DNA from: Chloroflexota bacterium
GTDB taxonomy: Bacteria; Chloroflexota; Anaerolineae; Promineifilales; Promineifilaceae
NCBI GenBank assembly: GCA_018004935.1
Contig: JAGNBF010000017.1
Coordinates: 1-64,000, forward strand
Length of the DNA stretch: 64,000 nucleotides
Reading direction: 5' to 3'
The position numbers were made by a program, and so were the translations under genes. Below the pieces are notes generated by a model that saw nothing but the letters and a program-made list of their open reading frames with translations, was not told the DNA's origin and did not search any database. How positions within the stretch are numbered: position 1 is the stretch's first letter; the number at the start of each line of letters is the position of its first letter. Shown here in pieces: positions 28,982 to 34,650 of this stretch.

Positions 28982-29230
28982 ATGAACAAGAAAAAGTTGC
29001 TAGAAAAGGTTCTCTCTGGCTCAAAAAACGTCCGCTTCAGCGAATTTGTGGCCCTCGTTGAAGCCTTTGGGTTCAAGTTGGCACGAATCCGCGGGAGTCA
29101 TCACATTTTCGAGCATCCCGACATTCCCGAAATCTTGAACTTGCAAAACAGCAAAGGGCAGGTCAAACCTTATCAAGTGCGCCAGTTTTTACAACTCGTT
29201 GAGCAGTACAGCCTGGAAATTGAGGAGTAA
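28982..29230 (+). CDS. hicA: HicA-type toxin (mRNA interferase)
   Basis: An 82-residue HicA-family protein with the double-stranded RNA-binding fold. VRFSEFVALVEAFGFKLARI is followed by RGSHHIFEHP, in which the His of GSHHIF is the catalytic residue of the family. HicA cleaves mRNA and is held in check by HicB, encoded 4 bp downstream. The order toxin then antitoxin is the usual one. Confidence 0.88.
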   Translation: MNKKKLLEKVLSGSKNVRFSEFVALVEAFGFKLARIRGSHHIFEHPDIPEILNLQNSKGQVKPYQVRQFLQLVEQYSLEIEE

Positions 29231-29234
29231 TGAT

Positions 29235-29477
29235 ATGCAAGACTACTTCATTAGTATCTTTTACTCAGAAGAAGACGGGGGATACATCGCTGACATTCCT
29301 GATTTGCGTTTCTGTTCTGCTTTCGGAGAGACGCCAGAAGAAGCTCTTCGAGAAGTCCAACTGGCAAAAGAAGCCTGGTTAGAAACGGCACGGCGTAGCG
29401 GCAGACCCATTCCAACACCCAAGTATCGCCCAGCCATTTACCACTTAACGGCACCTTCTGCGTTTTCCGCAACTTGA
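29235..29477 (+). CDS. hicB: HicB-type antitoxin
   Basis: An 80-residue partial RNase H-fold protein: ISIFYSEEDGGYIADIPDLR, then FGETPEEALREVQLAKEAWL, the standard HicB antitoxin core. The C-terminus (GRPIPTPKYRPAIYHLTAPS) lacks an added DNA-binding domain, so autoregulation may need another factor. The start at 29235 follows GAGGAG in the hicA stop region. Confidence 0.88.
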   Translation: MQDYFISIFYSEEDGGYIADIPDLRFCSAFGETPEEALREVQLAKEAWLETARRSGRPIPTPKYRPAIYHLTAPSAFSAT

Positions 29478-29546
29478 ACCAAGATTACCCTATATTGAAC
29501 ACTAACTTGAGTGAAGGCACGCGGCCGCACCCCCCACGAGGAATTC

Positions 29547-30005
29547 ATGACCATCGAACACATCTTTACCTGTCCCCCTGGCAACACTTCCCAGGTTGAA
29601 CATCAATCCGTGCGCGTGGTTGCCGGGGCCGGAATCGAGGGCGACCGGTATTATGGTGCTCAGGACGAGCCGGGCCAGAACATCACCTTTGTCGAAGCGG
29701 AAGAGATAGAGGGGTTCGCGGCCGCGCATAGACACCCCCTTGACCTGTCCATGACCCGGCGCAACGTGATCACCAGAGGCGTCCGCCTCAACACGCTGGT
29801 GGGCCAGGAGTTCACCGTCGGCACGATCCGCTTTCGCGGCGTAGAGCTATGTGAACCCTGCATGGGGCTGGGTGAAGCGTTGTCCTCGGCCACCTTGTCA
29901 CCGGCACAGGTCATTAAACATTGGTTGCATCGTGCCGGGTTACGCGCCAACGTGCTTTCCACTGGTGAACTTTCTGTTGGGGACGGGTTTCATGATACCA
30001 TCTGA
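29547..30005 (+). CDS. MOSC domain protein
   Basis: A 152-residue single MOSC domain (molybdenum cofactor sulfurase C-terminal fold). Signatures: VVAGAGIEGDRYYG near residue 27, LSMTRRNVITRGV, FRGVELCEPCMGL with the conserved Cys, and GLRANVLSTGELSVGD at the end. MOSC domains carry sulfur or handle metal-sulfur cofactors. ATG 29547 has GAGGAA 4 nt upstream. A GCGGCCGC at 29521 lies just ahead of the gene. Confidence 0.85.
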   Translation: MTIEHIFTCPPGNTSQVEHQSVRVVAGAGIEGDRYYGAQDEPGQNITFVEAEEIEGFAAAHRHPLDLSMTRRNVITRGVRLNTLVGQEFTVGTIRFRGVELCEPCMGLGEALSSATLSPAQVIKHWLHRAGLRANVLSTGELSVGDGFHDTI

Positions 30006-31679: not shown

Positions 31680-31931
31680 ATGGGTTCAACTATAATCAGT
31701 CGTTTGTGGGTCGCGGCCGCGTCCTTCACCAACGATCTCCTCCTGCTGGCCCTGGCAGGGGTGGTTTTCATGGCTGTTGAAGCCCGTCGCCTGCACATGC
31801 GTTTTGTTTGGGTCTACATATTGTTGTCTGGCCCAATTGCCATCAGTGTCATGTTTCCCCTTTTCCTCATCGCCCGGCAAATCACCCTGGTGCAACACCG
31901 GCTTCAACAATTCGTCCCAGAGAGCCGATGA
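31680..31931 (+). CDS. Small membrane protein, DUF2834-like
   Basis: An 83-residue protein with two membrane segments (LLLLALAGVVFMAVEARRLH and WVYILLSGPIAISVMFPLFL). The phrase RFVWVYILLS...FPLFLIARQ resembles DUF2834 proteins; function unknown. Its stop overlaps the start of the next gene (ATGA), the first of three such overlaps in a row. Confidence 0.6.
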   Translation: MGSTIISRLWVAAASFTNDLLLLALAGVVFMAVEARRLHMRFVWVYILLSGPIAISVMFPLFLIARQITLVQHRLQQFVPESR

Positions 31932-32476
31932 AGATGGATTCAACGATAAAAACAACCGTTTCTATACCCAGGCTACTTTGGGAGCAGGCTGAGAGCTTGT
32001 CGCGGCCGCTAAACACCACCCCCGCTCAGTTACTCGAACTGGCCCTGGCGGATTTCATCCAGCGTCATCAAGCACACCCATTACCCGGTGATAAGCAACA
32101 AACTGCCATTCATCAAGGGGATATTTACTGGATTCAGGCCGCAGAATTGGGAGAGCATCCCCACCCTTACGTGGTTATTCAGGATGATGTGTTGAATCAT
32201 AGCCGTATCCCTACGGTCGTCGTGTGTGCCCTGACAACCAACCGCAAGCAGTTCAACGCACCGGGCAACGTGCTTTTGGAAGCAGGAGAAGCCAATTTAC
32301 CCCAACAAAGTGCTGTCGTCGTTTCTAAACTGTCTACGGTAAACAAAACCCAGTTAGGCGAATACATCGGCACACTATCCCCGGAACGGATCAATCAGAT
32401 ATGGGCGGGGATGCGGTTTTTGCAGTTGACCTTTTTTAACGCGTTCAATCGGAATGCAGAGAGCACAGAGAGATGA
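31928..32476 (+). CDS. MazE-like antitoxin fused to MazF/PemK-like toxin
   Basis: A 182-residue protein combining two parts that are normally separate. Residues 1-50 (STIKTTVSIPRLLWEQAESL and TPAQLLELALADFIQRH) form a ribbon-helix-helix DNA-binding antitoxin. Residues about 62-170 are a MazF/PemK endoribonuclease: IHQGDIYWIQ at the start, PYVVIQDDVLNHSRIPTVVV, and QQSAVVVSKLSTVNKTQLGE, where the Ser/Thr-Asp core of the family is partly kept. The fusion could be self-inhibited until the N-terminal part is cut, or act as a DNA-binding RNase. ATG 31928 overlaps the previous stop; a GCGGCCGC lies near residue 26. Confidence 0.78.
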   Translation: MKMDSTIKTTVSIPRLLWEQAESLSRPLNTTPAQLLELALADFIQRHQAHPLPGDKQQTAIHQGDIYWIQAAELGEHPHPYVVIQDDVLNHSRIPTVVVCALTTNRKQFNAPGNVLLEAGEANLPQQSAVVVSKLSTVNKTQLGEYIGTLSPERINQIWAGMRFLQLTFFNAFNRNAESTER

Positions 32477-33972: not shown

Positions 33973-34650
33973 ATGCCCAATAACAATCACGACCCCGATC
34001 TACAGATACGCTATCAAATTTATCAGTTTTTTGCTGATCAATGCCGACCACCCACCACAAATGAGATAGCTGAACGGCTCGATATGTCGCCAGAAAACGT
34101 AGATGCCGCGTTCCATCGCCTGCACGACCGGCACATGATCTTTCTCGACGCCACAACCGGCCAGATTCGTATGGCTAATCCTTTTTCGGCTATACCTACA
34201 AGCTATCGGGTCAGGGCTGGCGAGAAGGTGTGGTGGGCTAACTGTGCCTGGGATACGTTGGGCATCGCGGCCGCGCTCAATCTCGACGTAGATATTGAGG
34301 CCAACCTTCCCACGGATGGGCAACCCGTTACCCTCAAAGTTACCAACGGCGCGGTGACTGAGCCGGATTGGCTGATTTACTTTCCCTTACCGTGCCGGCA
34401 ATGGTACGACGACCTGGTTTACACCTGAGCCAACATCTTGCTCTTTCGGTCGAAAGAGGAAGCAAATGGGTGGTGACAGGCCCATGATAGGTTAGAGGGT
34501 GAGGTTCTGACAGTAGGTCAGGTGTGGGAACTCTCCAGGTTATGGTACAGAGACCGGATGGCGGAGCATTTTGCCGGACGCACCGTAGAGGAAGCCCACC
34601 AAATTTTTGCACAACTGGGTTTGACCACCCCTTTTTGGCGTTTTGGGTGA
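33973..34650 (+). CDS. MerB-like (organomercurial lyase family) protein with in-frame UGA codons; candidate selenoprotein
   Basis: Read to the first stop, the frame gives 151 residues; read through two TGA codons (34426 and 34474) it gives 225 residues ending at TGA 34648. Residues 1-60 are a winged-helix domain, and the rest is MerB-like: RMANPFSAIPTSYRV, WWANCAWDTLGIAAAL with Cys91 and Asp94 at the spacing of MerB Cys96/Asp99, and DGQPVTLKV. The first UGA (codon 152) falls in VYT-UGA-ANILLFRS, aligning with Cys159 of MerB (FC-C-HVHFFAS). The second (codon 168) follows ANGW. After it LEGEVLTVGQVWELSRLWYR matches the family C-terminus with no frameshift. A SECIS-like hairpin follows the first UGA. 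A pseudogene with two nonsense changes is the alternative. Confidence 0.7.
34438..34465 (+). promoter_or_regulatory. SECIS-like hairpin after the first UGA of the MerB-like gene
   Basis: CTCTTTC (34441-34447) pairs with GAAAGAG (34452-34458), loop GGTC; TTG and CAA extend the stem past a small bulge. The loop GG is 20-21 nt after the UGA. In E. coli fdhF, as remembered, the GGUC loop bases stand at nearly the same distance. A weaker hairpin, CTGAC-AGTAG-GTCAG (34507-34521), follows the second UGA. Confidence 0.55.

Follow-up and report, generated by a model that had tools for sequence, protein, structure and literature searches.

In MerB, Cys96 and Cys159 bind the metal and Asp99 protonates the leaving carbon. 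The sole MerB-like selenoprotein in the literature searched is SaoL (NF040728), which carries a Cys-Sec motif and is listed in reviews (PMC9312934, PMC13188914); it is annotated as an organometallic lyase only, in connection with the SAO operon (PMC13188914, citing Haft and Gwadz 2023). Bacterial SECIS elements of the Escherichia coli fdhF type are stem-loops located just downstream of the UGA codon. A selenocysteine-containing MerB from Chloroflexota, or a MerB with two selenocysteines (Sec), was not described in the literature searched, and mention in Haft and Gwadz 2023 or Haft and Tolstoy 2025 is not excluded.

The locus described here lies in a 64,000-nucleotide stretch of Chloroflexota DNA (the window), taken from a draft assembly of 8.0 Mb in 229 contigs, estimated to be 97% complete. 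An ATG-initiated frame contains in-frame TGA triplets at codons 152 and 168 before its terminating TGA (Table 1). Read through, it matches the Pfam MerB profile (PF03243, gathering cut-off 27 bits) at 101.5 bits over 125 of the 126 profile positions, compared with 61 bits for the segment upstream of the first UGA, and it is the only match to this profile in the source genome. Alignment with plasmid MerB places Cys91 at Cys96, Asp94 at Asp99 and the first UGA at Cys159. The AlphaFold2 model, calculated with cysteine placed at both UGA codons, has a mean pLDDT of 96.6, and a Foldseek search of solved structures returned MerB2 (5c17, E = 6.4e-12) as the top match, with MerB also among the best. 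The frame thus very likely encodes a full-length MerB-type protein and is not a broken gene, a reading that rests on comparative evidence, without protein or 75Se data.

Table 1. Coordinates of the MerB-like selenoprotein gene and its proposed recoding elements in the window.
Feature	Position	Strand	Remarks
MerB-like selenoprotein CDS (predicted)	33973..34650	+	starts at ATG 33973; 225 residues if read through; stop UGA 34648-34650
Cys91 codon, equivalent of MerB Cys96	34243..34245	+	by alignment; column Cys or Sec only, 224 sequences
Asp94 codon, equivalent of MerB Asp99	34252..34254	+	by alignment
UGA codon 152, very likely selenocysteine at the MerB Cys159 position	34426..34428	+	column holds UGA in 136 distinct sequences and otherwise Cys
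Hairpin 1, very likely SECIS, CUCUUUC-GGUC-GAAAGAG	34441..34458	+	loop 34448-34451; covariation; z = -2.71
UGA codon 168, probable second selenocysteine	34474..34476	+	Cys column in most relatives; UGA here only
Hairpin 2, candidate SECIS, GUUAGAG-GGUGAGG-UUCUGAC	34491..34511	+	loop 34498-34504, 21 nt past the second UGA

Relatives were collected with the Pfam MerB profile at three taxonomic levels (family, 52 genomes; class, 396; phylum, 400), together with a scan of the genome_contigs collection, giving an alignment of 224 MerB-domain frames, 192 of them distinct once duplicates were dropped. Among the distinct sequences the Cys159 column holds UGA in 136 and cysteine in 56, with no other residue, and the Cys96 column is likewise restricted to Cys or Sec. 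Across the Cys96-Asp99-Cys159 columns, the Sec-159 forms comprise Cys-Asp-Sec (109), Sec-Asp-Sec (18), Sec-Glu-Sec (7), Cys-Glu-Sec (1) and a single fragment that has Sec in the 159 column; the Cys-159 forms are Cys-Asp-Cys (54), Cys-Cys-Cys (1) and Cys-Gly-Cys (1). The Sec forms come mostly from Chloroflexota, with records also labelled Gemmatimonadota, Acidobacteria, Calditrichota and a Deltaproteobacterium; no relative was found in viral contigs. The tree places the window protein together with L073 and L159 (support 99), within an extensive clade of Cys-Sec forms.

The 7-bp hairpin that follows codon 152 has its loop 19 nt past the UGA and is more stable than dinucleotide shuffles of the same sequence (z score in Table 1). 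An Rfam scan of the window gave no match. In 85 aligned sequences the six-pair stem is paired in 97.8% of cells, and both sides of a pair change together in four of the six pairs (22 cells), a count reached by none of 500 shuffles (mean 2.1) and not by slid versions of the stem (at most 13). Pair 22–27 occurs as C-G in 72 sequences, U-A in 12 and A-U in 1, and pair 18–31 as C-G, U-A, A-U or G-C. The commonest stem-loop of the Sec forms is UUCC-GGUC-GGAA; one double-Sec clade has UUCU-GGUC-AGAA, L043 has UUCA-GGUC-UGAA, and the window shares a compensated change, UUUC-GGUC-GAAA, with its three nearest relatives. A 4-bp stem is present in 125 of 130 Sec forms, as against 5 of 56 Cys forms. Synonymous choice in the hairpin region is frozen, with arginine encoded by CGG in 90 of 98 cases (background 18%) and serine by TCG or TCA in 127 of 129 (background 35%). 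Because more than 100 homologues share this UGA and hairpin, with compensatory pair changes, the hairpin is far more than a chance structure, and on this comparative evidence it is very likely a conserved SECIS maintained within the coding region despite coding constraint. L236 and six other Sec forms carry a variant hairpin, UUCC-GUGA-GGAG, in place of the GGUC-loop form, and have also lost the Arg-Ser motif.

The source genome encodes the selenocysteine machinery: profile searches identified selA (461 bits), selB (364 bits) and selD (376 bits), and Rfam (63 bits) and ARAGORN each detected a tRNA-Sec with anticodon UCA. The selD gene (L018) itself has one in-frame UGA within the region matching SelD, with a strong hairpin after it. 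Of the 49 genomes of the class in which MerB carries the UGA, 47 have SelA (p = 0.02); since Sec use is common in this class, where 334 of the 396 genomes match SelA, presence of the machinery alone discriminates weakly. A natural control for the Sec reading is provided by L038, a Cys form placed among the Sec forms in the tree and derived from a 98% complete genome (G308) without a SelA match. It lacks a hairpin of the Sec-form type; its tree position is weakly supported, and it has Asp99 replaced by Cys.

Taken together, the presence of the machinery, the sharing of the UGA by relatives free of frameshifts and unrelated stops, and the covariation of the hairpin give good support for selenocysteine at codon 152, which we consider nearly certain, though without protein or 75Se data. 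Two alternatives bear on both UGA codons. In the first, both act as true stop codons and the gene is a merB pseudogene that has decayed, as the two in-frame stops and the lack of a nearby mer operon might suggest. Against this, the same first UGA occurs in more than 100 homologues from several phyla, in a column otherwise occupied by cysteine only, and the hairpin covaries, the frame has no frameshift, the MerB fold is predicted at high confidence and the Sec machinery is present; a pseudogene is all but excluded. A frameshift was ruled out by the homologues. In the second alternative, a changed genetic code, UGA would be read as another amino acid. No evidence supporting it was found, and it too can be set aside almost entirely: the non-UGA forms all have cysteine in the column, never Trp or Gly, the gene itself terminates at UGA where close relatives use TAG or TAA, and tRNA-Sec(UCA) accompanies SelA, SelB and SelD.

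These results agree with most of an original prediction made from sequence alone, which had claimed that the frame continues past both TGA codons as MerB family sequence without a frameshift, that the first UGA, Cys91 and Asp94 correspond to Cys159, Cys96 and Asp99, and that a GGUC-loop hairpin starts within 20 nt of the first UGA; all three claims held. Its inference that Sec replaces the key cysteine is supported for codon 152 by the comparative evidence. It had named a genome without Sec machinery as the main ground for refutation, a ground removed by the finding of selA, selB, selD and tRNA-Sec; it had also held that unrelated stops or frameshifts in close relatives would mark a pseudogene, and the relatives show the same UGA and neither defect. 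The two comparisons it had proposed, alignment of homologues at codons 152 and 168 and covariation of the hairpin, gave Cys or UGA only at codon 152, a different pattern at codon 168 (below), and a passed covariation test. Its alignment of the second UGA with an alanine of plasmid MerB was correct as well. It had left undecided whether that codon is Sec or a stop; the evidence now leans towards a second Sec, without settling the matter.

The codon 168 column holds cysteine in 70 of 110 sequences of the window's type and UGA in the window sequence only. In the nearest relative, L073, 37 different single-base changes past the Sec codon could create a stop, and only one of them turns Cys into UGA. 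The UGA is followed by a hairpin of 7 bp, including two G-U pairs, which was found in the window alone among 109 aligned sequences and stands at nearly the same distance from its UGA as hairpin 1 does from its own. Judged by a criterion that was set with the sequence already in view, such a hairpin occurs at 1.8% of window positions (0.4% if the criterion is tightened). Another hairpin, CUGAC-AGUAG-GUCAG, 35 nt past the second UGA, was dropped in favour of this better-placed one.

In an alternative reading, codon 152 is Sec and UGA 168 is a true stop: either a recent nonsense mutation has removed 58 residues from the protein, or the assembly has a wrong base here. In its favour, the UGA is absent from about 110 relatives, a generous, generic rule finds a SECIS-like hairpin after 9% of random positions, and the assembly is a draft of 229 contigs, so the codon may be erroneous or peculiar to one strain. 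Against it, the UGA sits exactly on a Cys column and has its own hairpin, missing in relatives, at nearly the distance seen for hairpin 1 (21 against 19 nt). Substitutions past codon 168 resemble those of other sequence pairs and show no relaxed constraint, which says little here, as a recent stop would leave no trace. The stop reading remains a serious competitor, if the weaker of the two; a second Sec at codon 168 is likely, on the evidence of a single genome, and is not proven.

A number of relatives have UGA at both catalytic columns, Cys96 and Cys159 (L030, L029, L031, L033, L034, L077-L079, L081-L091 and L132-L137). The tree resolves these double-Sec forms into two groups, both well supported, and leaves L030 on its own. 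Right after the first UGA, one clade has the near-frozen codons CCC TTC GTG CAA GGG, which form the stem CCCUU-CGUGC-AAGGG, and the other has CUGGC-CGUGC-GCUGG. A bolder reading, towards which the balance tips only slightly, is that these sequences represent a large unnamed Chloroflexota family of MerB-type lyases with Sec for Cys159, that sister subfamilies have Sec for both Cys96 and Cys159, and that the window protein has also gained a private second Sec, served by a separate SECIS, at a Cys column close by, so that a switch from Cys to Sec would be visible here in just one lineage.

The explanation that best accounts for the whole, and that we regard as very likely, is a MerB-type lyase with Sec inserted at codon 152 and, most probably, a second Sec at codon 168; it is without protein data, and the lyase activity is inferred. 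In the proposed mechanism, SelB, tRNA-Sec and hairpin 1 would let the ribosome insert selenocysteine at codon 152. By homology with MerB, Cys91 and Sec152 would bind the metal atom in an organomercurial or similar organometal, and Asp94 would donate the proton that cleaves the carbon–metal bond. Sec152 is inferred to favour attack on the metal, because a selenol binds Hg(II) more tightly than a thiol and is ionised at neutral pH. UGA 168 would most likely be read, via hairpin 2, as a second Sec in place of Cys, perhaps providing an extra metal ligand.

Activity as an organomercurial lyase is itself inferred by homology, without activity data. No mer genes were seen near the relatives' genes when the neighbours of 54 loci were clustered and cluster representatives read; by the same reading the neighbours are lineage-specific housekeeping genes, with no conserved partner genes. 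MerA gave no match above cut-off in the source genome. The substrate is uncertain because of these two absences. They also favour a reading in which organomercurials are not the substrate of this Sec-containing MerB homologue, whose role would be to cleave a different organometal or to use its Cys/Sec pair for sensing or sequestering a metal; the restricted annotation of SaoL points the same way. Against such a role, the Cys-Asp-Cys/Sec active-site layout of MerB is retained and the nearest solved structures are mercury-bound MerB2 and MerB. We judge the non-organomercurial role to be rather the less probable, by a modest margin, and retain a MerB-type lyase as the preferred reading.

Standard annotation stops the gene at codon 151, with loss of the catalytic residue, so Sec-MerB enzymes are invisible or seemingly broken in well over 100 genomes. 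If it is true that a selenol active site cleaves methylmercury, the family would represent a novel type of organomercury detoxification enzyme. Because Cys/Cys, Cys/Sec and Sec/Sec versions of a single fold coexist, it would also offer a clean system for establishing what Sec gains over Cys in carbon–metal bond cleavage. Elsewhere in the window, on the same strand, are adjacent genes for a HicA toxin (PF07927, 44 bits) and a HicB-like/UPF0150 antitoxin (28982-29477), a MOSC-domain protein (PF03473, 42 bits; 29511-30005) and a 222-residue frame ending in a MazF/PemK-type toxin domain (PF02452, 70 bits; 31808-32476).

Compared with known systems, the window protein shares with MerB (PF03243; NF009710, NF033555; PDB 3f0o, 3f2f; MerB2 5c17) the fold, the Cys96/Asp99/Cys159 layout and the N-terminal helical domain. 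It differs in having Sec where MerB has Cys159, in lacking a mer operon, in a conserved FRSEE/FRSKE motif of its own that overlaps the hairpin, and in scoring below both MerB equivalog cut-offs (47.6 bits against 193 for NF009710; 40.3 against 200 for NF033555). The hairpin resembles the E. coli fdhF SECIS in being a stem-loop just 3' of the UGA with a GGUC loop about 19 nt away, but it overlaps a conserved coding motif and its loop varies across the family between GGUC, AGUC and GUGA. SaoL and the window protein are both MerB homologues for which Sec is predicted. The neighbouring genes include no recognisable SAO operon; the window protein scores 48.4 bits against the SaoL cut-off of 140, in a profile match that ends at residue 130, and carries Thr-Sec, in contrast to the Cys-Sec motif listed for SaoL (PMC13188914). 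Because it falls far below the curated cut-offs for both SaoL and MerB, and lacks the SaoL Cys-Sec motif, the window protein represents a new form of MerB-like selenoprotein.
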